NCBI GenBank assembly: GCA_016647705.1
Contig: CM028329.1
Span: 12,673,910 to 12,737,909 of the forward strand
Direction: 5' to 3'
From: Eucommia ulmoides
Taxonomy: Eukaryota; Streptophyta; Magnoliopsida; Garryales; Eucommiaceae
DNA: 64,000 bases
Shown one piece after another: positions 2,252-63,992 of this stretch (positions within the stretch are counted from its first letter, which is position 1; each line of letters opens with the position of its first letter). Below the pieces are notes generated by a model, which worked only from the letters and a program-made list of their open reading frames with translations, did not search any database and had not been told where the DNA came from. The position numbers and the translations under genes were made by a program.

Positions 2252-3264
2252 ATGAGCCTTAATCTTATCATGAGGATAGTTCTCCTCTCTTTGGTTGCAA
2301 GCAATAATAGATGAATTATTGGCTTTGGAAAAACAACATACATGCGACTTAGTGGAACTTCTGCCAGGAACGCGTGCTATGGGATGCAAGTGGGTCTACA
2401 AAAATCAAAAACCACTTAAGTGCTACAAGGCATGCTTGGTTGTAAGATTCACTCAAGAGTACAAAATTAATTATAAGGAGATTTTTGGCCCAGTCGCTAG
2501 ATTTACCTTTGTTCGCACTCTACTTGCCTTTGTTGCCATTCACAAGTGGTCTCTTTTAGATGGATGTAAAAAATGTCTTTATCAGTGTTAATCTTCTTGA
2601 GGAGATAAATATAAAACCTCCCCTTTGGCTAAATCGTCGATCGAACATAGTCTGTCTCTTTCATCGTGCGTTATACGGGCTAAAGCAAGCCCCTCGTGCA
2701 TGGTTTGCCAAATTCACTGCCATGATACTTTAGTTTAGCTTCACTTTTAGCTCCCATGATTTTGCTCTCTTCATCTGCCTAACTAAGAAAGGTATTACCC
2801 TCATACTGTTCTATGTCGATGATATGATCATTACTGACGATGATCTTCAGGGCATCTCAGTTCTTAAGATAATTTTCAACAATCAATTTGAGATGAGAAA
2901 TCTCGGCCTTCTAACTTATTTCCTTGGTCTGGAGATCTCTCATGACATAGATGGTGACTTCCTTTCTCAATCAAAGTATGCTTCCAATCTATTGTCTAAA
3001 GCTAGTATTACTGATCCGAAGACTGTTATTACTCCTATCGAGCCGAACACTCGACTTACTCCATTGGACGAGGCTCTTCTTCCCGATGCTATTTTATACC
3101 GTTGGTTGGTTGGTGGCCTCGTATGCCTCACAGTGACATGCCCAAACATTGGTTATGCATTTAATCAAGTCACCCAATCCTTATCCGCACCGCGCATTGT
3201 TCATTACACAATAGTTCTGTGTATTGCGATGCATCAAGGGGACACTCTTCTATTGTCTTCACTT
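2252..3264 (+). pseudogene. Copia element 1 reverse transcriptase remnant
   Basis: At 2283-2591 the translation contains GCKWVYKNQK and EIFGPVARFTFVRTLLAF, hallmarks of the N-terminal part of copia reverse transcriptase. At about 2670 LYGLKQAPRAW follows, and at 2807-2835 the catalytic FYVDDMIIT. The next stretch (2836-3264) reads LLTYFLGLEI and YRWLVGGLVCLT, the connection toward RNase H. Frameshifts near 2590 and 2750 break it. The right end is cut by the insertion at 3273. Confidence 0.85.
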
Positions 3265-3272
3265 CTCGTCAC

Positions 3273-3826
3273 CAGGTTCTAAGTATCGGCCGATACGTAA
3301 CGAAAAATCGGCCCACCGTTACGGTTACGGGCCGATATTTCATACTTGGGCCGATTCACACCGAATAGGCCCGTAACGGTGTCTTTTCCCGTTACGGTGA
3401 ACCGTTATGACCGATACAGGTTGTATTCAGCCTTGTGCAGACCCTCTCCCATAAAAAACACCCCTCCCATCAGCAAGCTGTAATTTCAGCCTTGTGCAGA
3501 GGCCATGTGATGACTGAAAATTCATCATTTCTTCAGATTTCAGCCTTTCTTCAACCTTTCTTTAGCCTTAATGAAGAATTCGTCATTTTTCATATCTTTA
3601 TTGTGTTGTATATGTACTTAAATGTTATAATATTTATTAGAATGTGTTTATTAAGAGTTTAATGAGTAAAACAATTACTATTACTAAAATTTTTAGGATA
3701 TTCTGGTGATTTTAAAAAATTCACGACCGTTACGACTGATTCCCTTACGGATAGACCGATACTCTTGATACCGTTACACCGCGACCGTTACCGTTACGTA
3801 ACCCGATACCGCGATTTAGAACCTTG
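3273..3826. mobile_element. hAT-like non-autonomous element inserted in copia element 1
   Basis: The 554-bp segment starts CAGGTTCTAAGTATCGG and ends with the reverse complement of CAAGGTTCTAAATCGCGG. It is bounded by CTCGTCAC (3265-3272) and CTCCTCAC (3827-3834), an 8-bp target duplication with one mismatch, as expected for hAT transposons. Both ends are rich in 'cgttacgg' and 'taccgttac' subterminal repeats. Removing it restores the RNase H reading of the host element. No transposase is visible. Confidence 0.88.
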
Positions 3827-13600: not shown

Positions 13601-16600
13601 TGGTGCTTCAGCTTTAAAGTTAGTAGTTCCCGATGCGTGATTTGAGTAAGATCTTCGAATAGTGGCTAGATCTGATCTTGTTCTGGCAGCAGAGAAAAGT
13701 TCTATGAGAAGCAATACAAATGTCTTACCTCTAATAGTATCCACCCGATTCATTGTCTCCTAGGTCATCCCTGCCTTGCCAACCTCAAGTTACTTGATCG
13801 TGATTTATATCATTTGTTTATCTTAGACTACGAGTCTTGTCAGTTGGGAAAATATCATCGTAGTTCATTTACTTCACAAGCTCATGTTCGAACATTAAGT
13901 CTTTTTAGTTTAGTTCGTTAAGATATTTGGGGTCCTTCTTGTGTTGCTTTTACATTGGGTTTTCATTACTTTGTGACTTTTGCGGATGATTTACATGACT
14001 TTATTTAATGAAAGACCGTTTTGAATTATTCTCTATTTTTCGTGATTTATGTGCTGAAATTAAAACTCAATTTAATGTGTCAGTACGTATACTTCGAAGT
14101 GATAATACTTAAGAATATTTTTGTCAGCCCTTTACTCTTTATGTCGCACTCTAGTATTTTGCATCAGTCTTTTTGTCTTCACGTACTGCCGCAAAATGGA
14201 GTTGCTGAGCGTAAGAATCAACATCTCCTAGAAATGACTTATACTCATCTTTTTGAGATGAATGTTCCTAAACACTTCTGGGATGATGCGGTTCTTACAA
14301 CTTGCTTTTTGATCAATAGGATTTTGTCTTCTACCTTAACTGACAAGGTTTCCCATTCCATTATTTTTCCTTGTACTCCCTTGTTTGGTTTACCTCCTCG
14401 TATATTTGAGTGTGCCTGTTTTGTTCATCAATTGACTCTCGGTAGAGATAAGTTAGATCCCTATATTTTAAAATGTGTCTTTATCGGCTATTCTTGCACA
14501 TAAAATGGCTCGTTATAGTCGACCGTTACGTTGCTCATTTGTATGTGTAGATGTTACCTTCTTTGAGTTCACTCTTTACTTTTTTGCCCCATCTTCTCAG
14601 GATGATTTGGATGTTACACTTCCTTTCCCAAGCCTCCTAAACCTTACACTGTCTCCCTTCGCTCCAGAACCTATCTCGCGTAGTCGTTCCTCACCTCCTT
14701 TGCAAGTATACTCGTGTCGCCAAAGTTAGCTTCCGCCATTGCGCCTATCGTGTCTTTGTCTTTAGATTCTTCACCAGATCATCCATTCATATTTGACTTG
14801 GACATGCTCATTGCCATCTGGAAGGGCAAGCGCACATGTACTGACCATCCTATTTGTAACTTTGTCTCATATGCAAATGTATCTTCTTCATACTCTTCTT
14901 TTGTTGCTTCTCTATCATTTGTTGTTGTTCTTAAGTTTGTCTCGGAGGCTTTCACTCACCTTAGTTGGATGATCACAATGGAAGAGGAAATGCTATCCTT
15001 ACATCAGAATGATACTTGGGATCTCGTCTTACTTTCGCCTGATAAAACAATAGTTGGATGTAAATGGGTGTACACAGTCAAAATTCATTCTGATGGCACC
15101 AATGATCGACTCAAGGCTCGCTTAGTTGCCAAGGTTGCTTTTGTTCGTTTGTTCATCTCTTTAGCTCCGACCTTTCAACTCAATATAGACGGTTAGTTGG
15201 GAAGTTGAACTACCTGATAGTTACTAGATTATATATCTGCTGATTATTAGTGTTATCAGTTGCTAGATCGTCTCACGATTTGTCACTGGGTTGCAGTGAT
15301 TTGTATTCTTCAATATCTAAAAGGCGCTCCTGGTTGTGGTGTGCAAAATTAGAACTTCGGTCACACTCAAATAAAGGGTTATACAGATGCAGACTGAGGT
15401 GGATCACCCTCAGTTAGGAAGTCTACTACATGGTATTGTGTGTTTGTTGGAGTCTAGAGGTAATCTTGTCTCTTGGAAGAGTAAAAAACAGACGGTAGTG
15501 GCCCGGTCAAGTGCAAAATCAAAATACAAGGCGATAGACCATACCACTTGTGAGTTAACTTGGCTGAAATATTTGTTGGAAGAATTTGGATTTGAACACT
15601 GTACACCGATGGACCTGATATGTGATAATGAAGCAACACTTCGTATTGCATCCAACTGAGTCTTCCATGAGAAAACAAAAGACATTAAACTTGATTGTCA
15701 TTTCATTCGAGAAAAAGTATTGTAGAAGTTGATTGAGATTAGACATGTAAATTTAGTTGATCAGTTAACTTATTTATTTACTAAACCGTTAGGGGGCTCA
15801 AGGATAAAATATATATGTAATAAGTTAGGAGTATGCAATATATATATACTCCAGCTTGAGGGAGAGTGTTAAAATCTTAAAGGGTATTTATGTCATTCCT
15901 GTATTATTTGGGATTTCCTGTAATGTTTAGGGTTTCTATATTGTTTCCTAATTTCAATTATAAATAGAGGGAGAGGTTAATACAATTGTTAAGTCTTCTC
16001 ATTCTTCTTGCATTCTCATTTTAGTTTATCAATAACTCAGTAAGAATCAAAACAGTAGTAAAAAAGAAGAAAGAAGGAATCAATTGGAAAACAGAGCTCA
16101 GACTGAATTGCAATAATTCTTGCTTGGGATACAGTGATGGCCAAATTTTTTGGTCTAGGGGGAGGCCACAATTTCTCCCCTTATTTATAAATGTTGTCCA
16201 AGGTTCAAAACCTTGACCCCTCTTTTCCTTAATTGCACTTTAGCGCCCGAACTTCTAACTAGTTCAACATTACTACCAATTCCTTTTAAAAGGACATTCC
16301 CAACTTCTGTTTTCTATTATGTGTGACTCATTTGGTTGATAATGTAATTCTTTGTAACACCAATTGAAATCTCATCCCAATCGTCACACTACTCTAGCTA
16401 GAGACTTGGCCGCTTGGGTGAATTATATTAAATTGAATTATAGAGGACACATCTCTCTTTACTGAGAGTGATAGATCCGTGATAGATCCTATCTTGCATA
16501 TTTTTATATTTACATGTATGTCCCACTATACCTAATGAAAACTTTTTGAGGTTTCATGACTGGAATACAACGCTTAGTATTATCAAATTATAGCAACCCA

Positions 16601-36076: not shown

Positions 36077-38130
36077 ATGTAAAAGCGTCGTGGGTCCATT
36101 CCAACATCAGAGTGGTTCAGTCTCTCCACCGATGATAGTGCCGGCGAGGTTAGGCCCTCCGCGGCAACTCCCTCCACAAGTGATCGAGGTGCTAACCCTA
36201 GCATCGAGACTCCAAACGCTAAGGTTGGAACAAAGATTGGGCCTTCTGATGGGCCTGATTCTAATGTCGGTGGATCAGGGGTTGGGCCTTCAATTAGGCC
36301 TGACCTCGAGGCAGTGGCCAAGCTTACTGGGTAATAGTCGTAGGCTCCCATTTTCGTCGTTTTCGACCATCCCATCATACATAAACCCGATCTTGGGGTG
36401 GTCAGGGCCACAGGGAATATCGTTGTGGAGTCTTAACTCTTAGACATGTATGACGACCATTCCATTCCCGGCGAAGTAGTACTATCTCTTCCCTGGTCGG
36501 GGTTTCGAGCGTATGGCTATGTGTTTTGGTTTATCACCTTCTACACCAATGCCCTCTTCGACAGGGTGCGATTCCCTCTTTACTCTTTCAGTTGGGAGGT
36601 TCTCCATATAGTGAACCTCTCGCCTGCCCAGGTCATTCCTAATGGTTGGAGGATAATGGTCAGATTCATTATTCTCTGCCTTAAGAGGGACATTACCCCT
36701 ACGTTCTCCTTATTCGTCCACTTTTACATCATTGGGAAAAACACAAAATCCAACGACAGATGGTTTCTGTTTCTTACTTAGCAGGGGATGCAGAAACTTG
36801 TAGTCGGGATCCCTAAGAACAATAAATGATGGAAAAGCAAGTGGGTCCTTGTAAGTTAGAAATTGGGAACAATCCACTGTGAAGAAGGGGCCTTTTCCAA
36901 TCCCCGCTCGGTGGAAAAAAAAAAAAGAACTAAGTAACCCTGCTGTGCCCGATCTTTTCCTTTAATTCCCGGTCTTCTTTGTTGGTTTTTTTTTTTGGCA
37001 ACTGTTTCATCTAATTTCTTTTCTCCCATCTTTTGTAGAGATCCATAGTTAACCTCCGCAACTCAGTAGCGTTGAGGCAACTGACGTTGCTATTCTTAAG
37101 GAAATCTCCGAAACGGCGAGAGACTTCGATTACCTTAAAGACACCGATTTCGACTTCTTATTCATGAAGCCTAACCGACTAGCTCGAGTTTTGGAAGTTG
37201 ACCTCGAGATTGACCGATGAATTGATGAGTACACACCAAAGTTGGACCTGTCGAGTTCCGCCCAAAGGACCGTTATAATCCTCATCGTTCCATTATAATC
37301 CTCTTTCCCCCGTTATACTAAAGTGTTTGGTGAGCATATACGTCGAGTTGTAGCGTGAACAAAGAGGTTATGAAAGCATTGCGTTGTCGCCAGGCCGCAA
37401 AGATGACTATCGCCACTCTTGTCGCCATGGCCGATCCTGTTGGTATTCCTATTGTTTTCCCAGTTACTGTCACAATGGCCACTTCGGGTGAAGTCTCCTG
37501 CCAAGTGCCCTCGGCCAACATTGTGGCTAACTGTCCTACTATGTCGGCCAAGAAATTACGCTTGTCTGCTACTGTAGTGGCCATTCGGGAAGAGCCAGTG
37601 CTTAAGAGACCGTAGGGGACACCACTGACAACCTCTAGAAAAGAAAAAAAAGAAAGTGGGAGAGCCTTCCCGAGGTCGTGCATCCAAATCTCCAACTTAG
37701 GGAGAGCCCCGAGAATGGGCTCCTCGGGTTGATCGGCTCACCATGGAGTCGATGGTTATCTCTAATCCTAAAAACACAGCTCGATGGTCGCAACCTGCAA
37801 TTCTCTTATGGGACCCCGAGGCAGTGGTAGGTAGGCCTACCTTGGCAAGGAAAGGGATGCCAAGGAGAAGGCTGAGGCTAAGTTGGTTGAGAAAAGAGCC
37901 TAAGTAGAAGATGTGGTGGTGAGAGCTATCTAGGTTTGAAAGTTGATTGTTGATTTTCGCAAGCTGAGAGAGGACCTTAAGGAGAAATTCATGGAGGCTG
38001 GATTTGAAGATGCCAAGTACAGGGTGCTTGAGATGTATTCTGAGGTGAACATTTTCAGAAATCTACTTCTTGGGACTTCCCCTTCGACGGTGAAGCAGAG
38101 CAAGGTGACCTCAGTTAATTGGAGCCCCTA
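36077..38130 (+). pseudogene. T1 antisense ORF 1 ('putative gypsy type transposon'-like domain plus coiled coil)
   Basis: A frame from ATG 36077 reads KRRGSIPTSEWFSLSTDDSA and, from 36446, MYDDHSIPGEVV, YTNALFDRVRFPLYSFSWEV and NLSPAQVIPNGWRIMVRFII. The layout resembles the plant family annotated as 'putative gypsy type transposon' (Pfam Transposase_28). A coiled-coil segment at 37943-38045 (FRKLREDLKEKFMEAGFEDA) follows in another frame. Stops, including TAA as second codon, and frameshifts make it a pseudogene. It is opposite in strand to the integrase of the same element, as in T2. Family assignment is from recall of motif layout; role unknown. Confidence 0.65.
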
Positions 38131-43620: not shown

Positions 43621-45184
43621 TGTATGACGAGCATTTGATACGCACTCACGTATTGACTACTCGCAAGTGTACGAGGTCAAAGTTTTAGTATAGTGTGATC
43701 GTTAAGATCGAGTACCGTATTCACAGGGATTGGTTGTCGTTATTATCGAGTACCGTAATTGTCATGATCTAACTTTATCTAGGCTAAAAACAAATATATT
43801 TAATTAATTAAACTAAACTAATTAACTAAATTATCTATACTAATATAATGAGATGTTTTAGGGGAAATAATTGTCTGGGGATTAACTCAGTTTACAAATA
43901 CGTGTTCGATCTCGATTGACTTACGTTTACGGTGTTCGACATATTTGACAATCTCAATTCGTAAACTCTTTCGCTACCTTTCCTGAGTGTAAAACGAGGG
44001 ATATAACGGGACTTCGTGTCAACGAAGAAGTCCTCCGCAACGTCTTAATGACCCTAGATCACGTGAGTCTCGCCCCAACGTCATTGATTGCACATAATCC
44101 AACTCTCGACCAAGTTATTGGATCGTCGCGTTGTGTTTACCCTATCGATAATCTCAGTTCTAAAACTCTCCCGCCACCTCTCCCGAGTGTAAGACGAGGG
44201 AATACGTGACTTCGTGCCAACGGAGAAGTCCCCCTCAACGTCTTAACGACCCTAAGTCACGTGAGTCTTGCCCCAACGTCATCGATTGGCGTTATGTTTA
44301 CTTTGGTCCGAATCCGGGGTTACCTCTCCCGAGTGTCAAACCCCGTATTCTTCAAATATTATTCTAGGCATAATAAACATAACAATACGATAAACAAAAT
44401 CAAACTTCGAAGAACAAACATAAACGCAACACCGAAATAATTTGAAACACATATTTATAAATATATTGTCAATCCCTATACAATCCACATTTAACTAACG
44501 CTCATAACCGCATTTACAAATAAGAACAAGCTAAACATGCTCACAGAATCCTAAGTTAAAGAAATAAGGGAAGAAATCGAAGAACTTAGTCTCATCCGAA
44601 GTTTAGCTGCTAAGAACGTTCAACGATTGCTTCGCCGTCTTCCTCTACCTCGGAATGTGAGCTCCCCCTCTAAAACTTCTCTACCTACCTTTAGATATAT
44701 TATAAGGGGCTCAAATGGCTGGAGAGAGCAAGAGATAGGGAGAGGAAAGGGGTTTAAATAGGCAAAATATCTAAAAATATATCTTAAATCTGTGCAGAGG
44801 CCACCGCAACGGCGGTGAGTAGGTCGGTTGGTTGATCGCCTCGGCGGTGTGGATTAGGTTGACATCCTGCATTTCCAGCACCGCGGCGGTGGTCTCGTAC
44901 CGCGGATGTGGATGTTCAGTAAGGATAAATCATTCTTTGCATTTTCACCGCTGCAACGGTGGGCTTCTTTTAGAATATTGTCACCTTGCTCATTTTTCCA
45001 CCGTTCTTCGACCGTTTTAGGTTCGATCTCATCGTTTTTGTTCCAGTTTCCTATCTTTTTACCCCACACACTTGATTTATACAAAAAGTATAAAAACTAA
45101 TTAACATATAATAAAATAAATATAAAAATTACTCTAAAATTAACAAAATCGGTTTGAAAATATGTAGGTAGATCACACCTATCA
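43621..45184 (-). mobile_element. 3' LTR of Athila-like non-autonomous element
   Basis: Collinear with 47093-48688 over its full length. The + strand begins TGTATGACGAGC and ends CACACCTATCA, giving TG...CA. Just to the right, the minus strand reads 'aaatttggggatat' then TGATAGG, a polypurine tract, so this is the 3' LTR of a minus-strand element. The LTR holds an internal ~190-bp duplication of the 'ctctcccgagtgtaagacg' block. Confidence 0.85.
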
Positions 45185-47092
45185 AATATCCCCAAATTTA
45201 GAATTTTGCTAGTCCTCGAGCAAAACACACACACGAAAATGAAAAACACAACTAAATGAAATAACAAACAATCTAAACATAACGACATGCGAGTTTTACA
45301 TTCTTCTATCGACCAAGTCATTTTTCCCTTAACAACCGCCAATCATATCGAGTTTAGGCGGTAAAACACATCATGTGGTTCTAGAATTTTGACATGCAAC
45401 AATGGTGAACGCCATTCTAGATCCTGTAAACGTGTTAGTGGGAGACTCAATAATATAACTATCTAAGACTGGATTGGATCATCCACCAACGGAACTCAAG
45501 ACTTAGACCGTGAAGGACTAGGATTTCCATAAGCCTGATTGGGGTCCACTCTCCACTAATGTAGGCTTGGAAGTTCATAAAGTTCATTAGGGCTTGGTTC
45601 GATTTTGGAATATTTGTCCAAGGGTATTTTGGGATAGAAAAAGGGTTAACGTTGTTAACATAACGTTACCCAAGGCTCAACGCTTGGCACATTCACTCTT
45701 GAACCCCCATAGAAAAATTGTAAACAATTCTAAACATACATTTTAGACCGATGTACTCACTTGTCAATAGAAACATAATTTATTTTTTTATTTATTTTTT
45801 TATGCTAACCACACCCCTAAATTTATTCGATTAGTATGATTTCACGGGTGTGGTAAAAACGAACAACAAACGACAGGTGAGTACTCGAATACCGAACCAA
45901 TCCGAAGTTCGTCCTAAACCCAACCGCTCACATCAAGAAGTATTTGCAATTGCTAACTTGATTCACTCAAATGTACCTTTAAATTCAGCGATTAAGGTTT
46001 GGAAAAAGATCAACTGACTGGGGTATTTGTCTATGTGTTCAGACTTGAATTGCCTTTAAGGCTTCGACAGGGTAACGAGGGATAAACATGTTACAAGGTA
46101 GGTTTCAAAGGCTCAAGCAATAAAAAGAATGCCTAAATCACGTCTCTTGAACTACCTCACCTAGGATTTCGCCTCAAGCTTCCCCTTAATCAGGTTCTAG
46201 AATCCTTAATTTGTCATGAATTTGGCTAATCGATAATTTACCTCAAATCAATTGAATAGAAATACATTGAGTCTGTGTGCTTGTGCAAATTAAGATCTAC
46301 AATAATTTTTACCAAAAAGCATAGTCAAGCACATAGAACACACATGCATGGGTATTACCCTTGACTTCGAAAACAACCAGGGTAATTATCATCATCGGGT
46401 AACGGCCCAGATGAACGCAAAACTCAACATGCAACAACAAATACAAACAAACACAAACTAACCTAAACAAACATGCACACGGTAAAACAATAACACATTT
46501 AACATACTATATACTACATCTCACTTCCGAACTTCAAACGGATAGTGTTCTCAACGACCCAATCATCATTCTTCAACATATAGGAAATTAAAGCATGCTG
46601 ACGAAGGAGGTTTAGAACACGTACCTGGGAGGCGAGAGAATCTCGCCTCTGAATAATTTCGGCTGTGACAGATTTAATTTATTTGACCTTAGGTTGTCTC
46701 CCAAGAAGTGGATGGTTTAATGTCCTCGGCCCAACATTTTCAAAACACCCTCAAGCTTGGTGAGATTTTGCTTTGTTAGGCTTAATCTTTCAACGACATG
46801 CCTCATCGGCTTATGTGCGTGGCCACGCACAATAAAATAACTTGGAATCCTGTCAAAAGAAATGCATCAATACCCGTCGATATAACATCGGCAAGTACCC
46901 TACATAAGAAATAAAAACAAAACTACAAACAAAAATTATATACAAGAGAAATGCCTAAAGCAAAATCGGGTCATTTACTCACAATATCGATAATAACTCT
47001 ATCCAATCCCCGGTAATCGTTACCAAAAACTAGGTGGTGATCGCCGAAAACTAAATTCGACAAACCAATCCCTGGCAACGGCGCCAAAAACT
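45185..47092 (-). mobile_element. Internal region of the Athila-like element, non-coding
   Basis: Only about 1.9 kb lies between the two LTRs. No gag, protease, polymerase or integrase motif was found in any frame, so it could only move with enzymes from a relative. The right end has the primer-binding site (47069-47086), the left end the polypurine tract. Confidence 0.8.
47069..47086 (-). other. Primer-binding site, tRNA-Asp type
   Basis: The + strand reads TCCCTGGCAACGGCGCCA, matching the 3' end of plant tRNA-Asp (TCCCCGGCAACGGCGCCA) at 17 of 18 positions. Its complement is therefore the Athila-type primer-binding site. It lies 6 bp from the LTR at 47093 and fixes the element on the minus strand. 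Confidence 0.9.
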
Positions 47093-48688
47093 TGTACGGC
47101 GAGCGTTTGTTACGCGCTCGCGTATTGGCTACTCGCAAGTGTATGATGTCAAAGTTTTAGTATAGTGTGATCGTTAAGATCGGGTATCGTAAGCACAGGG
47201 ATTGGTTGTCGTTATTATCGAGTATCATAATTGTCATGACGTAACTTTATCTAGGCTAAAAACAAACATATTTAATTAATTAAACTAAACTAATTAACTA
47301 AATTATCTATACTAATATAATAAGATGTTTTAGGGAAAATAATTGTCTAGGGATTAATTCGGTTTACAAATACGTGTTCGATCTCGATTGACTTGCGTTT
47401 ACGATGTTCAACCTATTTGACAATCTCAATTTGTAAACTCCCCCGCCACCTCTCCCGAGTATAAGACGAGGGATATAACGCGACTTTGTGTCAACGAATA
47501 AGTCCCCCTCAATGTCTTAACGACCCTAGGTTACGTGAGTCTCGCCCCAACGTCATTGATTGCACACAATCCAACTCCTAACCGGGTTATTGGATCGTCG
47601 CGTTGTGTTTATCCTATCGGCAATCTCAGTTCTAAAACTTCCCCGCCACCTCTCCTGAGTGTAAGATGAAAGAATACGCGACTTCGTGTTAATGAAGAAG
47701 TCCCCCTCAACGTCTTAACGACCCTAGGTCACATGAGTCTTGCCCCAACATCATCAATTGACGTTATATTTACTTTAGTTCGAATCCGTGATTACCTCTT
47801 TCAAGTGTCAAACCCCGTATTCTCCGAATATCATTCTAAGCATAATAAACATAACAATACGATAAACACAATCATACTTCGAAGAACAAACATAAACGCA
47901 ACACTAAAATCATTCAAAACACATATTTATAATATATTGTTAATCCCTATACAATCCACGTTTAACTAACGGCCATAACCGCATTTACAAATAAAAACGA
48001 GCTAAACATGCTCACAAAATCCTAAGTTAAAGAAATAAGGGAAGAAATAGAAGAACTTAGCCTCGTCCGAAGTTTAGCTGCTAAGAACGTTTAACGATCG
48101 CTTCGCCGTCTTTCTCCACCTTGAGATGTGAGCTCCCCCTCTAAAACTTATCTACCTACCCTTAGATATATTATAAGGGGCTCAAATGGCCAGAGAAAGC
48201 AAGAAGAAGGGAGAAGAGAGGGGTTTAAATAGGCAAAATATATAAAAAAAAAATATCTTAAATCTGTGTAGAGGCCACCACCACGGCGGTGTGTAGGTCG
48301 GTTGGTTGATCGTCTCAACAGTGAAGAAGACGGTGGATTAGGTTGACATCCTGCATCTCCAGCGCCGCGACGGTGGTCTCGCACCGCGGTGGTGGATGTT
48401 CAACAAAGATAAGTCATTTTCTGTATTTTCACAACCGCGACGGAGGTCTAGATGCCGCGACGGTGGGCTTCTTTTAGAATATTACCGCCTTGCTCGTTTT
48501 TCCACTGTTCTTCGACCATTGGTGGTTTGATCTCATCGTTTTTGCTTCAGTTTTCTATCTTTTTGTCCCACACACTTGATTTATACGAAAAGCATACAAA
48601 CTAATTAAAATATAATAAAATAAATATAAAAACTACTCTAAAACTAACAAAACTGGTTTAGAAATATGTAGGTAGATCACACCTATTA
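47093..48688 (-). mobile_element. 5' LTR of Athila-like non-autonomous element
   Basis: Begins TGTACGGCGAGCG on the + strand and ends CACACCTATTA (the expected CA is TA). It shares the internal ~190-bp duplication with the LTR at 43621. Short GC-rich 'ccgcgacggtgg' runs near 48290-48470 match 'ccgcggcggtgg' in the other LTR. Right of it the text 'aatacccc' resembles the polypurine tract complement beside the other LTR ('aatatcccc'). Confidence 0.85.
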
Positions 48689-49159
48689 AATACCCCGCTT
48701 GCCAAGGTAGTCATGTCAAAATTTCAATATGCTTGTAATCGATACAAACTTAGGAAACATCGAAATCTCATACCACCTATGATCAATTCCAAACTCCGTT
48801 TGCAAACTGTAATACTAACACGATTTTTGCCATATAAGGAAAATTGTTCCACCCACAAAGGCTCTTGTCTTCTGTTCCCCAATTCGTACTCGTGCCCATG
48901 CGCGACAACCTGTCTTAATGGACAATATTGAGGAGAGATCGCACGGACCCACCGAGGTATTGCAACAAAAGGAAGAAAAGGTTTCGATGTCGTTCAAATG
49001 ACAGAATTACTATAACAACTCAGCCAGCCTTAGTAGAACCCAAAACGGATCCGATCGAACCAACAATACTGTATTAGCCCTCTAGTTCCCGAGGCCCTAG
49101 TTCGGTTGTTGGGGAATAAGTTCTCCATGCAGCATATCTAACATCAGTACCACAAACCA

Positions 49160-55971: not shown

Positions 55972-56364
55972 GTAATAATTGATAATAGATAGATATGTGG
56001 GTTTATTCAAGCGATATTTATCTTAATTATTTCGCATTTCACGAATGAACCCTTGAACGTTCATTACTTCACTAACTCGTTTACGCCCACATTGTTCGTA
56101 GTGAGATATGGTTTATTTTTCCTTTTTAGAACCCAAGTGGTTTAGTGAAGGCTTACTTTGCTCCGTATAATCTTGAGTTTGATTCATAATGAATGGTTGA
56201 AGTTCGTAGTTTTTTGGACTCGGGTTTGGGAAAGAAATGAGCATTAATGTTATCCAAAAGGAAGGGTGAGTGGGCAAATTGATGGGTGTTCATAGAATTC
56301 TGCGTGAATATACCAATCTATATCTATATGTAAAACTTGGAAGTGGAAGACATGAATTGGGGAC

Positions 56365-56947
56365 TGATGTTGCCAACATTTACCCGGTACGTGTTTCACG
56401 GCCTCACGTGCTGGAAACCTCCGCAACTTGCAGTCTGACCTGCAAAACCAGTTAATTCTATAGGGAACACCGGTGTGGTGTCGGTCAAAGAACCTCCGGC
56501 GTGAGAATAATGTCAAATTGCTCTGAGAAGAGAATAATCAATTGACTGTGTATCAGAGTAATATTGAAAGAAATTGTCTTGATACTTTCTTCCTTGTCGT
56601 ATATATAGGCCATACCTCCGGTAACCATTCCCACCACGACTCTCTCCATGTTCCATAATCAACCGTCGTAAATGTAGCCTATGCTTCCATTATGGGAAGT
56701 TGCGTCAATCGTGTTAGTGCATGGGGAGGATTGTAGGTGAGGTAACGGTTACTGTTAACCTACTATCCTTAGATCCAATAATTGGGCCCTCCGTGGAAGG
56801 TTTTGTCCTTCACCGAATAGGCCCAGTGCGTTGCTGAGCTGTGCTTAGCAGGTCAGACGCTTCGTTTTTGGGCTGTTAGGGTAGTGGCCCATTGCTCGCT
56901 ACTGAGTTGCCTCTTTTGGGTTGGGCCCCGTGGGCAGGTTCGACCCA
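56365..56947 (-). mobile_element. 3' LTR of T2
   Basis: The + strand runs from TGATGTTGCC to GGTTCGACCCA. On the minus strand a TATATATA box (complement near 56608) is followed by an R region with 'cagagcaatttgacattatt' (about 56508-56527) and 'caccggtgttcc'. A purine-rich 'gagcagaggaagataaag' (complement of 56950-56967) precedes its start. The left limit is secured by the matching 5' LTR end at 63993; the right limit is inferred. Confidence 0.7.
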
Positions 56948-57145
56948 CTACTTTATCTTCCTCTGCTCCGGCTTGCATGTGAGAATTTTTCCCTCTTCAT
57001 TTGCCCTCCTGACCTTCGCGGTGGTTCCCTGAAGCAAAACGTAAGGTCACCCCGTTCCTGTAAGTTCTCTTATTTTCCTACTTTATTGCTTGATTTCTTT
57101 GCCGCATTGTGTTCTCGTGTTCGCCCTAAGTTCTTGATTCCGTTA

Positions 57146-59775
57146 ATGGCGTCTACTCCGCGCCTTAGCCTGGCCGAGGTCGGTTTCTCATTCACGCCTC
57201 TTTCCAAGAGGACGCTGGCGATCGTGCCTCGCGCATCCACCGATTCCCCAATAAACTGGGGTGACTATGGGGCGAGTGTTTTCCGAGAGGAATGGCTCGG
57301 ATCGTTTCGGGACACATTCGAAATTCCTCCCTCGATCAAAATTAGGGTTCCTTCGGAAAATGAACGCCCTTATTCCTGTAAGGAAGATGAAATATGTTTC
57401 TTTGTTTGGATGTTTGAATATGGTTTTTAGCTTCCCTTCACCCCGCTTCTTCGCAATTTGTTTCATCAACTGGAAATCACCCCAACCCAGTTGGTCCCTA
57501 ATGGATTTCGCCAAATTATGGGCACTCTTGCGCTATCCCGTTTAAACAAAGCACCCTTAACCGTAGAGATGATAAGGAGTGTGTGCTCTCTGACATTCCA
57601 TAATGACTTTGGGAGATTCTATTATTCTGCCACGAAACAGTATACCTTCCTTACTGACCTTCCGCAAGCTGTGAAGAATTGGAAGAATTGCTACGTGTTC
57701 TTCAAAGGGAGTTGGGAATTTTCCTCAGAGGAGGTTGGGCGGACCCCGGTTGTACTGCGACATTTCAATTACCCAAGTAATCTGTTTTTTTTTTCATCTT
57801 CGTGATTTCTGAGCTCCATTGCCTTTGCGAGGCCCTCACCTTTTTTGTAAATTGTGTTGTGCAGGCAGAAGCACCTGTCAAAGGTTCCGTTTGACGCATA
57901 AGGTCATTGGTCAATTGGAGAAGCTCTTGATACCAGAAGACCAATCTGGCCAAGAGCTCGTTTACAAGCCGTTTGTGCCCCAAAAAATGAGGATCGACAA
58001 AGCTCATGTCTCGCAATTGCACAACGTGGCCCTAGGATAGAGGAAGAGAGCGCCCAAGAAGGTTCCACCAGCTATTGCGTCTACCACCTACTGTGGTTCC
58101 TCCCAGATTTGTCTAGCCTCAAGAACCTCGGTTTGCTATCCCTATATCACCGGACTCTGACAATGACTCGCAGCCTCTGCGTATAAAGCGGCGCGGGGTG
58201 GTGTCTGTCCCTGTCCCTAGTTCTCGCGTCCCGGTTCCTACTGAAATTCGCGGGTTGGAATCGGCTACTAGAGCAGTTGGGGTTCCCATAGCCCATACTT
58301 CTGAGGCCACGGCAGTTTGTGCTCAGTCCATTCCATCTGTCCTTGTATCTGGGGCCGGTACCTCTGCAGCCCCAAGCCTGCTAGGGGTTTCTAAGGAGCA
58401 GATGCTTTAATTGCTGAAAGAGGTAGGCCTATCAGTTTTAGATCGTCAACAAATCTTTGAGAATGCCATCCGATTTCTCTATGAGCAGTCCTGTGAAAAA
58501 AGTCGTTCGAGGATTGACAAACATAGCCGAGTGGAGATTTTTCGATCTCTTATCTGCGCGCTTTTTCAGGTAATTTGAATTTGTCTTTGGTAATTCTTTT
58601 GATGTGCTTAGACAAAATTCTGAGTAGGTTCGGGTACCTTGCAGAGTATTCATCTGTCCTCTGCCTTGGCTGGGAGTTTCGACGACGCATCCGAACTGGA
58701 CACTCAGCTCATGCATCAACTGATTGAGTTTAGTCGGTTGGAGGACGATATCCGAATTCGGCTGGAGTTGGCATTGGAGAGGTCTTCAAAAGAATAAACT
58801 GAGACTAATTTGCAAACCGCTCGAGCTTAGTGTGAATTTTTTCAGAGCAGCAATGAGTCTCTACTTGATGAAAACTCCAGGCTCTTAGCTGACATTAAAA
58901 GATTGTCTGTTGAGAACTCCATATTGGGAGAGCAGCTCAACAAGCAGCAGTCTGAGCTTGATCTAAAGAGCAAAAAACTAGATGCCAAGATAGATGCTCT
59001 CCAGCAATCTCCAGCAATCAGAGAAAGGAAAAAACTAGTATCTGACGAATTGAGCTTTGAGAAGGTTAAGAGCTTAGCACTCGAGGTCAAATTAGCAGCC
59101 CTGGAGGCAAGGTCAGCGAAGCAGGCTAAAGCTTTAGTGGATTTGACTGCAATGGCAGAGCAGAAAAAGATTGAGCACGAGAAAGGAGTCAGAGAGCTGT
59201 TGGAACACTTTGACTCGCTTAAAGAAAGCATTTAGCTGGTTGGTTTTCGGTTCTGTCAAGTACAAGTGCAATAGGCACATCCTGAGCTGGATCTCGCCTT
59301 CTTTAACCAATTTATCCCTGAAGACGAGGAGGGTCTTAGCTCTACCTCGGTATAACCACCGAGTTCATAACCCCCAATCGTTGGTGCAACAAAATTGTCC
59401 CTGCCTCCAAGCTCGCCCTCCACTAGTCAAGCTTAGCCAGACATTAACCAAATCAAGCTTGGTTGCGAACAGGCTTAGCCCGCTTTTGATCAAGCTTGCC
59501 CTGCTCTCGAACCAGCTCAACTCGTTTCTGTCTAAGCTCAGTAGGCCGCAGATCCAGTTCAACTCAGCTCCAGTCAAGCCTCTTCCGTTCTCAATTTAGC
59601 ACAACCCGTTGTTGTCCAAGCTCAGCCCGTCCCCGAACCAGTTCAGCTCGGCTCCGATCTGGCTCTGGTCGCTTCTAACCAAGTCGAAACTCTGCCCAAC
59701 AAATTAACTCTGGTCGCTGCTAACACCCATGTTGTACCTCTGCCAGATAGTGGGGACCAATTAGGCGCTGTTTAA
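57146..59775 (+). pseudogene. T2 antisense ORF 1: 'putative gypsy type transposon'-like domain, coiled coil, Q/P/L-rich tail, spliced
   Basis: ATG 57146 starts MASTPRLSLAEVGFSFTPLS. Exon A (57146-57776) contains FREEWLGSFRDTFEIPPSIK, FHQLEITPTQLVPNGFRQIM and VYFFKG-like text, with one in-frame stop (57428). A GT-AG intron (57777-57864) joins exactly in phase to exon B (RSTCQRFRLTHKVIGQLEKL). After a frameshift near 58100 the frame runs to CAG at 58567-58569. A second GT-AG intron (58570-58644) joins in phase to exon C, a long coiled coil (ENSRLLADIKRLSVENSIL, EQLNKQQSELDLKSKKLDAK, EVKLAALEARSAKQAKALVD) and a tail with repeated QAQPVPEPVQL text up to TAA near 59775. Its strand is opposite to gag-protease. 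Such extra antisense ORFs are known in Tat-lineage elements; function unknown. Confidence 0.75.
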
Positions 59776-59981
59776 CTGATCAGCTGTCTTTTCGATTCTC
59801 GTTTCCATCAGTTTTGTAATGATGGTACTTTTGTTATTATGACTAGCTTTAATTGTTTGCCGTATTCAATCTTGGGAATCGTCGTCTTTTTCCTCAATTA
59901 TTGCCACCGTTTCGTATCTAATGTCTTAATGTTCTGGCATTTTGGTTTAGTTTTTTGTCATTTAGTGGACGTTGGTTTGGC

Positions 59982-59990
59982 TATTTAAAG
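59982..59990 (+). promoter_or_regulatory. TATA-like box before T2 antisense ORF 2
   Basis: TATTTAAAG lies 85 bp upstream of ATG 60075, followed by a pyrimidine-rich leader ('ttctttcttcttccttctttt'-like). The spacing fits a separate promoter for the second antisense ORF. Confidence 0.4.
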
Positions 59991-60074
59991 TCGAACCCTC
60001 TCGAGGTTTTTTCACGTTTTCTTCGAGTGTTCTTTCTTCTTCCTTCTTTTATTTTCTTCTATCTCATATTAACC

Positions 60075-60422
60075 ATGGCCTCATCATCATTCGCATCGAA
60101 CATCTTTGATGCCGTTCAGGCCAATAGGAAGAACGAGGTTGAGCTAGGGCAGCTGTTTCGAGAGCTTATGATGATGGCTAAGGTCCTTGACGAAGAACAT
60201 CCACGGCTTCGCGCCCTCGAAGGTGCCTGTGGTGCTTTCGCTTCCCTTGATGTCGCCCATTTTTGCGCGGTGTCTCAAATCCATTAACTTCGTGACTGCC
60301 TGAAGATGGCGGAAAAGGAAAACGATTCGCTGTAGGTCCAAGTTGATCTTCACAAATCCTACAACGACGTGCTGAAGATGAAAAGGGACAGGCTTTGGGA
60401 GAAAAATGAATTCGAGCATTGA
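60075..60422 (+). pseudogene. T2 antisense ORF 2 (short coiled-coil protein)
   Basis: ATG 60075 in a good context (accATGGCC) reads MASSSFASNIFDAVQANRKN, ELGQLFRELMMMAKVLDEEH and GACGAFASLDVAHFCA. After TAA (60285) it continues in the same frame as LRDCLKMAEKENDSL, a TAG, VQVDLHKSYNDVLKMKRDRL and WEKNEFEH, ending TGA. It is heptad-rich, about 115 codons. No family recognised. An equivalent lies at 38763-39215 in T1. Confidence 0.55.
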
Positions 60423-60967
60423 ATCGGTACAAAGAACACAACTTCTACCGTTTAAACTCAGATTCTGAGGGCTTAGGTCTTGTGTCTCTTCCCGGATCTG
60501 CTTCAGCCCTTTCCTTTCTCTATTCTTTGCCCTTTCTTTTTGTGTTTTCATTTCGCAAGAGTGTTTTTGAACAATATGGGCTTATTAGTCGCCAAATAGG
60601 CCCCTACGATGCTCTTGTCATGGCTCCATTAAGTATTGATAGGATTCCTGTGATGTTGAACGTAATGTACCTTTTGATTTCGCGGTAGGAAGTGATAGAT
60701 TCAAGATTTTCTTTCATATTTTCTTGTACTGATGCATTTGTTGTATATGGACAATCGTTGGGCATCGCATGTTGTGTGCTAAATTGTGTATTTAACTTCA
60801 CAAATTTTGCATTTAATTTTCCAAAAGTATCAAAGCTTTGTTTTGAAAAATGGCCGCCGTAGGCCCTCCTCCATAACAAGCTTAAGTAATTAACATGTTA
60901 TGGATTGCTTGAATCCTCGAGATTTATGGTCGAATAAATCTCAGCAGTTTGGTTTTACAAGCTAACT
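60423..60967. other. T2 spacer, nothing recognised
   Basis: AT-rich DNA between the antisense ORF 2 and the minisatellite. Frames on both strands are short and hydrophobic, without motifs. Confidence 0.4.
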
Positions 60968-61640
60968 GATCCAGGCAGTTCGGCTAAATTGAGCTAGGTC
61001 AGCATTAGTTGGGCTGAGTTAGGCAGCTCTGAACTGGGTAGCTCTGGTTCTGAACTGTGCTAGGCAGTTCAGTTTATGAGCAAACTGAGTTAGGCAGTTC
61101 TGTTGAGCTAAGCTAGGCAGCTATGGTTGTGAACTGTGCTTGGCAGTTTAATTTATGATCGAACTGAGCTAGGCAGTTCTGTTGATCTGGGCTAGGCAGC
61201 TTTGATTGTGAATTGTGCTAGGCAGTTCAGTTTGTGATCGAACTGAGCTAGTCGGTTTCGTTGAGCTAAGCTAGGCAACTTTGAGCTGAGCTAGACAACT
61301 CTAGTTGTGAATTATGTTGGCAGTTCAGTTTATGATCAAACTGAGCTAGGCAATTCTAGTGAGCTGGGCTAGGCAGCTTTTGATTGTGAACTGTGCTGGG
61401 CAGTTCAGTTTGTGATCAAATCGAGTTAGGCAGTTTTGTGGAGCTAGGCTAGGTAGCTTTGAGCTGAGCTAGGCAACTCTGGTTGTGAACTGTGCTGGTA
61501 GTACAATTTATGATCGAACTGAGCTAGGCAGTTTTGTTGAGTTGGGTTAGGCAGCTTTGGTTGTGAACTGTACTGGGTAGTTCAGTTTATGATTGAACTG
61601 AGCTAGGTAATCTGTTGAGTTGAGCTAGACAACTTTGATT
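60968..61640. repeat. Minisatellite of 79-98 bp units in T2
   Basis: About eight units of the form 'gaactgagctaggcagtt' ... 'gagctgggctaggcagctt' ... 'gttgtgaactgtgctgggca' ... 'gttcagtttatgatc'. Short units are about 79 bp; long ones (about 98 bp) have an extra 'gagctgagctaggcaact' insert. The 11-bp core 'gagctaggcag' recurs twice or three times per unit. The array is at the position of the variable 3' region where Tat/Ogre elements are known to carry tandem repeats. Confidence 0.92.
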
Positions 61641-61799
61641 TAAGCTTTGTTTATCGCTTCTGATTGTAAAATTGATACTTTTTTGTGAAGTAAATGGTTT
61701 TTATTGCATTTTAGAAAATAGCAAGGAATAATTTTTCTTCCAACTTAAAACGAAAACCACAAAGCAAAAAACAAAAACTCACAAAATAGAGTCTTTAAA

Positions 61800-62336
61800 T
61801 TAAATTAAATGAGCTGGGTTGTGGATTTTCGCTCCACATAGCTCTTGTCTTTGATCTGGGTTGCTGGCTTCACTCTTTCTTGCCTCTATGTTTGTCGTCA
61901 CTGTATGACTCTTTCCCTTCATGGCTATCGCAAAGCACTGTCTGGACGTGACTTGGTCTTCTCTGATTATGGACACTTTGCCATTCTTCACGTACTTGAT
62001 ACATTGATGGAAAGTCGACGCCATAGCTCCCATTGCATGGAGCCAGGGCCGTCTCAAGATAGCATTATTTGGAGACGTTGAGTCCATTACCATGAATTCG
62101 GTAGCTTTGGTTACTCCACCTTCATCTTTATTTGCAGTGATGGATAAAGTGATCTTCCTTTTAGGGGAGCTCAGGTCCTCGTTGAAGCCTATCATTACCG
62201 TTTGGGTGGACCTACTGTCTAAGCTAGGAATGCCCATCTGATTAAGCGTATTAACGAAAATTATGTTGGCTGAACTGCCGGTGTCGATCAAGACTCTTCT
62301 CATTTCAAAACTGGAGATCCAAAGGGTTATCACCAA
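61800..62336 (-). CDS. T2 gypsy aspartic protease
   Basis: An open frame of 178 codons contains MRRVLIDTGSSANIIFVNTL with the active-site DTG, then MVMDSTSPNNAILRRPWLHA and MGAMASTFHQCIKYVKNGKV, the standard Tat-lineage retropepsin layout that matures the gag-pol polyprotein. Its frame is intact, unlike most coding pieces in the window. After it the polymerase expected next is missing. Confidence 0.85.
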   Translation of the reverse strand: MVITLWISSFEMRRVLIDTGSSANIIFVNTLNQMGIPSLDSRSTQTVMIGFNEDLSSPKRKITLSITANKDEGGVTKATEFMVMDSTSPNNAILRRPWLHAMGAMASTFHQCIKYVKNGKVSIIREDQVTSRQCFAIAMKGKSHTVTTNIEARKSEASNPDQRQELCGAKIHNPAHLI

Positions 62337-62467
62337 GGCATCATCGTGAGGGTAAGCTACCCCTTATAATCTTCTTCATTGAAAGTGATCACTGGTCCTG
62401 CATTGCTGATCAGAGCCATTACCTCCCCGTAGCATCGTTCCTCTACTACCTCGCGGACTTTCCTTTT

Positions 62468-63923
62468 TCACTCGCGATTCGTCTTTCCAAGATGAGGACT
62501 AACTGTGTTTATCATATAGATCACCCCACGAGTGTTGCCCGGGTCGTCATTCTTCCTTTCATCGTCTCGGCTCTTTGAACGAACTTCGCTTCTTGGTCTC
62601 TTCTTTTCCCTTGTCTGCTCTTGTAGGTATCCGCGTGGTCGCCCCATGTCAATCAATCGCTTGATTTCCCTTTGAAGCTTCCGACAGTTGTTAGTGTCAT
62701 GTTCGCGATTTTTGTGGAATTCACAATACTTGTCTTTGCTCTTAGTGGACTTCATCGGGAGTTTAAGAGGCCACTGCATAACCTTGGATGACCTGATCTC
62801 ATGAACTATTCTGGAGATAGGCACACATAAGCTTGGGAGGTCTGGCTCCTATTGCACCCCAGCTCTCGTCGTTGAGCTCCTAGGATGCTCTTTCTGCCAA
62901 TCTGAGGTGTTGCTCTTAGCTTTCTGACGACTGGTCTCACCAGCTCTGGAACTGTCCTTCGTTGCTGATCTGCTCTCGCTCGCGTACTTTAACGTCTTCC
63001 AGTTTCATGTATGACTTTTTCTTCTCCATCAGCTCATTCATGGTCTTCGGAGTGTGCTTCGTTAATGAATCCTAGAACCGATTTGACCTCAGGAAGGCGT
63101 TTGTAATAAGGTTTGAATCACAGCCTTTGATGCATGTCAGTTCTTCATTGAAGTGATTCATGTATTGGTGTAAAGATTCGCCCTTTTCCTCCCGCAACGT
63201 TAACAGGTAGTCAACGCCTTTCATCAGCCTTTGGCACGTGATTAATTAGCCAATGAACTGCTTTCCAAAATCCATAAAGGACGAAATAGAGTTGGGTGGC
63301 AGCGAGTGCAACCACTCCAGGGCTGACCCTTTCAAGGTCATTGCAAAAGCCCTACAAAACGCAAAATTTCCCACTCCATAGATCGACATCAGATGTCTAA
63401 ATTGTTGGATGTGGTCCACTAGGTCTGTTTTCCCATCGTACTTCTCAAATTTGGTGGGGTCGAATTTATCGGACAGCGGTGCCTCCAAAATGTCCAAGGT
63501 GAATGGTATCTCAGTTCCCCTTAGCAGCGCGTCTAGCTTGTCAACCTGTAGATCTCTGCCCTTCAGTGCTCTGCATCGTTGGTGGGAGTCTACCGTCACG
63601 TTTCGAGTTAGCGTCCGTCCGCCACCCGGGTGGGTACTCATACCCCTCTGGTCTGTTCATCCTCCCTACGATAGATCCGGGGACTCCGGTGACTCAGCCT
63701 GTTTCCCGAGGCCGTTATTAACAGGAGGGGGGTGCTGAGTGTTCGCAGCAATCTGTTGGGCCATTCTTGTTAGCATCCCTTCCATTGCGGCGATCTTCGC
63801 TGCTAGCGTATCGACCGTCTGCACCTCAGGGTGAGGAACAGTGTGTCCTCCGCCCGAGGCCTCTATATGAGCTTCCGTGTTTGTTGGTGGTGGGATCTCA
63901 CTTCCCTGACTCAAACCAGTCAT
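62468..63923 (-). pseudogene. T2 gypsy gag, in several frames
   Basis: From right: MTGLSQGSEIPPPTNTEAHI with a short helix (TLAAKIAAMEGMLTRMAQQI, 63666-63923). Then RGTEIPFTLDILEAPLSDKF, KFEKYDGKTDLVDHIQQFRH and TLKGSALEWLHSLPPNSISS (63246-63641), the retrotransposon gag core. Next LREEKGESLHQYMNHFNEEL (near 63150-63200), and the C-terminal C-x2-H-x4-H-x4-C knuckle-like KYCEFHKNREHDTNNCRKLQ (62468-62824) with a basic tail. At least two frame breaks divide it. Confidence 0.88.
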
Positions 63924-63973
63924 TCTTGATCGTAAATGCCTTATCTAATCGGTGAACTTCTTTTTGTTTTGTT

Positions 63974-63992
63974 TCCCACAGACAGTGCCAAA
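63974..63992 (-). other. T2 primer-binding site
   Basis: The minus strand reads TTTGGCACTGTCTGTGGGA directly after the 5' LTR end '...CATCA'. It resembles the TTTGGCGCCGTCTGTGGG primer site common in plant Tat elements, with changes in the middle. Confidence 0.7.

Follow-up and report, generated by a model that had tools for sequence, protein, structure and literature searches.

Introduction

Antisense open reading frames (ORFs) are documented in Retand elements, for which one survey describes 63 clusters with 104 antisense ORFs, some of the clusters lacking pol domains (Vicient 2025, PMC11963269). That such ORFs encode TRP28 and that a cluster may hold more than one of them is already known from that work. 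Here we describe T2, a decayed copy of a non-autonomous Tat/Retand-type family of long terminal repeat (LTR) retrotransposons. T2 occupies 8.3 kb on the minus strand of a 64,000-nucleotide stretch of the Eucommia ulmoides genome (assembly GCA_016647705.1, contig CM028329.1, positions 12,673,910 to 12,737,909 of the forward strand), hereafter called the window, whose numbering we use. We consider it likely that the T2 family carries a module of two antisense genes, the first of them spliced, and that both proteins have been kept by selection.

Several described systems resemble this module in part. The Retand ORFs lie antisense between pol and the 3' LTR, encode TRP28 and have tandem repeats nearby; gene 1 of T2 resembles them in its place, its orientation and the repeats, and has a weak match to TRP28. 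The Retand catalogue counts ORFs, and its main text does not use the word "intron", while "splic" and "exon" occur in its references only; gene 1 of T2, in contrast, consists of three exons. A second gene under 600 nt, like gene 2 of T2, falls below the ORF limit of the catalogue unless it holds TRP28 (PMC11963269). The gene23 of maize Grande likewise runs antisense in the 3' part of the internal region; according to PMC7264820 it is driven by a promoter of its own and its product is nuclear, whereas the T2 family has two genes, and introns. In deltaretroviruses (the human and simian T-lymphotropic viruses HTLV-2, -3, -4 and STLV) antisense genes are spliced and translated (PMC8622228), and HBZ and APH-2 are nuclear (PMC11963269). 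HBZ-type genes are marked by a bZIP domain and shared ancestry; the resemblance to T2 is one of layout alone, and the two T2 introns are short and plant-like. Ogre is a Tat-clade element with an intron, but there the intron is on the sense strand, between gag-pro and the reverse transcriptase (RT), and is partially spliced (PMC6317226, PMC12786077). Plant LTR retrotransposons are said to be generally without introns, Ogre and EVADE being the exceptions (PMC12786077), and a closer look at antisense and spliced transcripts has been urged (PMC7264820). In the literature searched, mostly without subscription papers, we found no description of conserved introns in antisense TRP28 genes or of the small second gene.

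Introns and reading frame of gene 1

A first-pass annotation of the window had proposed that a long antisense ORF of T2 continues in phase across two short GT-AG introns and is followed by a separate small ORF. Both pairs of junctions lie exactly where it placed them (Table 1), and the splice sites of relatives, together with frame-specific ratios of nonsynonymous to synonymous substitution (dN/dS), support a two-gene module whose first gene has introns. Relatives were collected by a DNA search with positions 57146-59235, in which the best 40 of 786 candidates, T2 included, were scored; T2 was then aligned with 18 relatives from the same genome. The AUG initiation codon of gene 1 is kept in 18 of the 19 aligned copies, as judged by eye.

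The junctions are conserved among these copies. Intron 1 starts with GT in 19/19 copies and ends with AG in 16/19, its length ranging from 79 to 95 nt. The five donor bases GTAAT are unchanged in 18/18 relatives, a level met at only 2 of 2084 five-base positions, the GTAAT site being one of the two. Intron 2 has GT in 17 and AG in 16 of the 19 sequences. Its sample was enlarged with loci fetched through gene 2 to 28 distinct copies (from 47 loci, 12 of them without a match, 2 partial, and 6 pairs representing the same element); here GT is present in 25, AG in 23 and both in 21, and the intron measures 74 nt in 22. None of the 19 gene 1 sequences has lost an intron: both are found in all.

The modal lengths are 631 nt for exon 1, 85 nt for intron 1, 716 nt for exon 2, 74 nt for intron 2 and 606 nt for exon 3 (to 59235). 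The sum 631 + 716 is divisible by 3, which keeps exon 3 in phase, whereas neither modal intron length is so divisible. The modal phase is seen in 10/19 copies for exon 1, 10/19 for exon 2 and 9/19 for exon 3, the length departures of single copies being in line with decay. Pairwise Nei-Gojobori comparisons (171 pairs, exon by exon, stops and gaps excluded) gave a median dN/dS of 0.29 in the spliced frame of exon 1, compared with 0.69 and 0.81 in the wrong frames; the corresponding figures were 0.36 vs 0.54 and 0.77 for exon 2, and 0.22 vs 0.57 and 1.08 for exon 3 (to 59235). The introns are as variable as third codon positions, with values of 0.806 and 0.808, against 0.797 (exon 1), 0.799 (early exon 2) and 0.771 (exon 3). 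They are also T-rich (47% and 41% T, exons 24-29%). By a donor scoring matrix, the site at 58570 ranks highest of 225 GT sites and that at 57777 tenth.

The proposed in-phase joining therefore holds for the modal exon lengths; T2 itself is not one open spliced frame. It is interrupted by TAG at 57428 in exon 1 and by TAG at 58038 and TAA at 58408 in exon 2, which has 705 nt and whose net loss of 11 nt shifts the frame. Exon 3 contains stops at 58795, 58828 and 59233 and at seven further sites ahead of the closing TAA (59773-59775), which makes T2 a pseudogene copy. Gene 1 is longer than first annotated and continues beyond the stretch closed at 59233. Of the 14 copies with sequence at the closing TAA, 13 retain it, and for this reason we take gene 1 to extend from 57146 to 59775.

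When separate pieces of T2 were compared with Pfam, TRP28 was not found, because the in-frame stop splits the domain. Structure prediction of the TRP28 piece 57431-57775, made without an alignment, returned a mean predicted local distance difference test (pLDDT) of 36.9 and no usable model. The basic stretch lies at about 58041-58065 and reads KRKRAPKK-like in relatives (by eye); the coiled-coil piece of T2 matched no Pfam family at the curated cut-off. A possible donor of an intron in the 5' untranslated region (UTR), GTAAGT, is present at 57060, with GTAAG kept by eye in 4 of 9 upstream stretches (L085 among them, unaligned).

Gene 2 and its candidate promoter

The first-pass annotation had described the small second ORF as preceded by a TATA-like box and a pyrimidine leader. 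Both are found upstream of it in T2. A DNA search with positions 59960-60440, in which the best 40 of 345 candidates were scored (T2 included), yielded 30 sequences for comparison, namely T2 and 29 relatives. The candidate TATA box, TATTTAAA, starts 206 nt past the gene 1 stop. Its first T is located 92-95 nt upstream of the ATG in 26/30 copies, and it is the best-kept 8-mer among 288 upstream positions (26/29 relatives). In two of four divergent loci GGCTATTTAAAGCC occurs at -95 and -98, the other two having altered forms. Around the box (59976-59995) many relatives show an inverted repeat, TTTGGCT-ATTTAA-AGCCAAA, the right arm of which is damaged in T2.

The ATG of gene 2 is present in 25/30 sequences, and dN/dS (435 pairs) is 0.31 in frame, compared with 0.63 and 1.01 in the other frames. 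The ORF noted earlier is indeed present in relatives; its end had been set too early, as the relatives continue to a stop column at 60503-60505 (TAG in 25 and TAA in 2 of the 30), some 80 nt further on. In T2 itself the frame is closed by stops at 60285 and 60333, and 28 nt that 23/29 relatives have after 60408 are missing, while copy L044 is open throughout. A protein search, whose query included one codon ahead of the ATG, gave 1809 candidate places, and the best 150, which were scored, show 45-100% identity. The predicted product, which matched no Pfam family at the cut-off, is small and probably helical. Taken together, the codon comparisons indicate that both antisense proteins were under purifying selection in the active lineages.

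A block following gene 2 (60540-60660) is non-coding and well kept, with a mean column identity of 0.88-0.91 over the 30 sequences; it is perhaps a 3' UTR or a signal of the opposite strand.

Arrangement of the module and age of intron 1

To count pairs, 39 gene 1 matches (T2 and secondary pieces excluded) were set against 39 gene 2 places found by DNA and 150 found by protein. In 21 of the 39, a gene 2 match of the same orientation follows within 10 kb, at a distance of 491-1005 nt in 12 of these; not one of the 39 has a gene 2 match within 10 kb upstream or on the opposite strand. The two genes are in tandem, oriented toward gag, and sit between protease and the 3' LTR. They were earlier described as opposite gag-protease, and are in fact beside it.

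Loci of divergent TRP28 families were obtained by a search with PF04195, in which the best 150 of 2444 candidate places were scored and 30 were cut as loci. Thirteen of the 30 have a GTRAG donor within a single 30-nt window past the TRP28 domain; in 268 other windows the count averages 1.66 and never exceeds 8. Among the windows tried, this one holds the most donors, and by position T2's own donor lies in it. Ten of the 13 donors are in phase 1, as in intron 1 of gene 1, and several further loci have, by eye, a donor with single-base departures. A scan for the best intron 1 donor in the 30 loci placed it in phase 1 in 15/30, a noisy result with scores overlapping those within the domain. Judging from the donor shared at the matching window, intron 1 is probably older than the divergence of these TRP28 families. 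Three scans of viral contigs revealed no relatives.

Two observations concern other TRP28 loci. One is a second TRP28 domain in the window, at 36554-36733 on the plus strand (C5:12710463-12710642; E=3.2e-9), which is stop-free, belongs to a different family and has a candidate GTAAC donor close to the expected position. The other is a TRP28 subgroup, G000, with equally long stop-free frames of 346 residues (e.g. C16:53865867 and C5:4534420), which is perhaps younger or domesticated.

The T2 element

The features of T2 are collected in Table 1. A BLAST self-comparison covering the window and the 18 kb that follow it paired the LTRs 56365-56999 and 63993-64638, the latter lying nearly all beyond the window end, at 86.4% identity over 646 columns. 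The element ends in TG...CA and is flanked by GGGAC (56360-56364) and AGGAC, a 5-bp target duplication with one difference. With 1.3e-8 substitutions per site and year, the divergence of the LTRs would correspond to roughly 5-6 million years.

Table 1. Parts of T2 and its antisense genes, in window positions
Feature	Position	Strand	Remarks
Gene 1, exon 1	57146..57776	+	631 nt; begins with ATG; weak TRP28 match; TAG stop at 57428 in T2
Gene 1, intron 1	57777..57864	+	GT-AG; phase 1
Gene 1, exon 2	57865..58569	+	basic stretch; net 11-nt loss in T2
Gene 1, intron 2	58570..58644	+	GT-AG; phase 0
Gene 1, exon 3	58645..59775	+	coiled-coil part to 59232; glutamine- and proline-rich (Q/P-rich) tail, closing with TAA 59773-59775
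TATTTAAA, candidate core promoter for gene 2	59982..59989	+	exact in 27/30 copies
Gene 2	60075..60505	+	152 residues in open copy L044; 60503-60505 is the stop column of relatives
Tandem repeats, ~79/178 bp	61040..61638	.	between antisense genes and protease
Protease region	61800..62363	-	DTGS motif by eye; Pfam Asp_protease_2 E=0.019, under cut-off
gag region	63246..63656	-	Pfam Retrotrans_gag E=0.0012, under cut-off
3' LTR	56365..56999	-	partner in self-comparison 63993-64638

T2 was compared with Retand in several traits. An antisense TRP28 ORF between gag-pol and the 3' LTR is found in 97% of Retand clusters and tandem repeats in the 3' internal region in about half of them (PMC11963269). 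T2 has the repeats, and it has the position and orientation of the antisense TRP28, with a domain match that is weak and under the Pfam cut-off of 26.2. Published clusters have LTRs of 315-1194 bp and internal regions of 7380-12869 bp (PMC11963269). The T2 LTRs, of about 635-646 bp, are inside this range; its internal region (57000-63992, 6993 bp) is slightly below it, because pol is missing. The Retand lineage is otherwise marked by the clade of its RT, and the Tat clade (Ogre and Retand) by an additional RNase H between RNase H and integrase. No Pfam family, those of RT, RNase H and integrase included, was matched by seven minus-strand frames (88-145 residues) lying between 57191 and 60897, and none of the remaining T2 frames resembled these enzymes by eye. 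In 15 of the 29 gene 2 relatives, the DNA 3' of gene 2 aligns to T2, within 1.5 kb, through the end of the protease frame at 61800 or further; three of these (L043, L046 and L062) extend past 62170, and L062 has the protease motif. This alignment implies that pol is absent in at least these copies, and not solely in T2.

Elsewhere in the window, 43621-48696 contains a tandem duplication with a spacing of about 3.5 kb, whose blocks are 84-92% identical and hold no frames longer than 99 residues. Ty1/copia RT-like fragments are located on the plus strand at 2734-3282 and 14684-15196 (translations judged by eye).

Discussion

Our preferred reading is the following. Transcription of gene 1 would probably begin in or beside the 3' LTR, as the gene starts about 147 nt inside the edge of that LTR. 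The pre-mRNA would be spliced at two short U-rich introns and translated into a protein with a TRP28 domain, a basic stretch resembling a nuclear signal, a coiled coil and a Q/P-rich tail, while gene 2 would be expressed from its own TATA box to give a small protein. The introns would survive each retrotransposition cycle unspliced, because the genomic RNA, being the minus strand, contains only their reverse complements, which are not substrates for the spliceosome. The earlier statement that introns can persist only where their strand is not the genomic template went too far, given that Ogre retains an intron on its sense strand through partial splicing; the accompanying remark that the T2 introns fit antisense expression seems fair.

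Several points weigh against this reading. Stops are present in exon 1 of 18/19 gene 1 sequences and in exons 2 and 3 of all 19, which makes whole proteins from these copies doubtful today. With an X in place of the stop, T2 exon 1 matches PF04195 (Transposase_28) at E=2.5e-4 and 21.7 bits, under the 26.2 cut-off, and the unbroken exon 1 of L073 at 15 bits (E=0.029), so that the gene 1 domain is at best a divergent member of TRP28. No clear TATA box is found ahead of gene 1. The tail beyond 59235 gives no clear frame signal, other frames reaching equal or lower dN/dS (16 of 30 sequences used; 10 were too short and 4 without a match). The five donor bases of intron 2 are kept in 14/18 relatives, as they are at 136 of 2084 positions, and carry little weight alone; a simple donor scan of the divergent TRP28 families gave scattered sites and no intron 2 at the matching place. 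Finally, we infer plus-strand transcription, splicing, translation and promoter use from conservation, whereas the anatomy, its conservation, the selection on both genes and the retention of the introns are shown by the sequences themselves.

The presence of stops in every gene 1 sequence examined could mean that the functional product is an antisense RNA, which pairs with the genomic RNA and silences or tunes the element, the coding signal being a relic. Regulatory antisense RNA has been discussed as possible in plant elements (PMC7264820). However, dN/dS is low in both genes at a median dS of 0.5-0.8, which requires long selection on protein, and we regard this explanation as unlikely. Introns and an own promoter look cellular, and would also be expected of a host gene captured in reverse, introns included, and carried along by the element. 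Ancient capture of a host gene is possible. Passive hitch-hiking does not fit: throughout the flowering plants, 97% of Retand clusters are reported to carry TRP28 (PMC11963269), a donor is common to the divergent families analysed here, and selection persists. We judge the hitch-hiking gene distinctly improbable. The long stop-free frames of one TRP28 subgroup, about 346 residues, would suit domesticated genes that serve the host, with the elements as their decayed relatives; but the first look gave many candidates (2444 for TRP28 and 1809 for gene 2, 150 of each scored) and the setting of T2 is LTR-bounded, making this very improbable. That a spliced gene is simulated by chance, through unrelated open stretches and the GT/AG pairs of T-rich DNA, can be virtually dismissed. 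T2 does carry stops and a shifted frame, and of the 107 GT pairs within the gene, 26 persist in at least 16/18 relatives (so that GT conservation alone says little for intron 2); but dN/dS is frame-specific in three exons and in gene 2, the phases fit, and divergent families have a donor in the matching window. Chance open frames, in particular, are ruled out by the wrong-frame dN/dS controls.

Within the two-gene reading, the weakest step concerns function. Both proteins could be nuclear, bind element or host DNA and regulate transcription or integration, since the gene23 product of Grande is nuclear, TRP28 is predicted to bind DNA (PMC11963269) and exon 2 encodes a basic stretch; we put this forward tentatively, and more doubt than confidence attaches to it. 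More speculative still, and in our estimation somewhat unlikely, is the idea that the antisense strand of Retand-type elements is an ancient second genome, made up of a TRP28 gene with introns and a small gene under its own promoter, in which introns act as a strand tag. If so, antisense messages would lose their introns and the genomic RNA could not, so that any antisense mRNA miscopied into DNA would be recognisable, and the antisense genes could use host splicing and export while leaving the genomic RNA whole. The loss of pol from elements that kept gag, protease and both antisense genes would then mean that these proteins are needed in cis more than the RT.

If gene 1 is spliced, catalogues of ORFs cut its product short and miss the later exons, and the spliced antisense layout would have been overlooked by counting single ORFs. 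Splicing may then help to explain why TRP28 was seen in 23% of Retand elements in one survey (PMC6317226) and why TRP28 ORFs are under 600 nt in some clusters (PMC11963269). The function of the antisense genes would become testable, with the correct protein made from the spliced RNA and gene 2 as a possible partner, and the T2 family would offer a natural case of intron survival in a retroelement.

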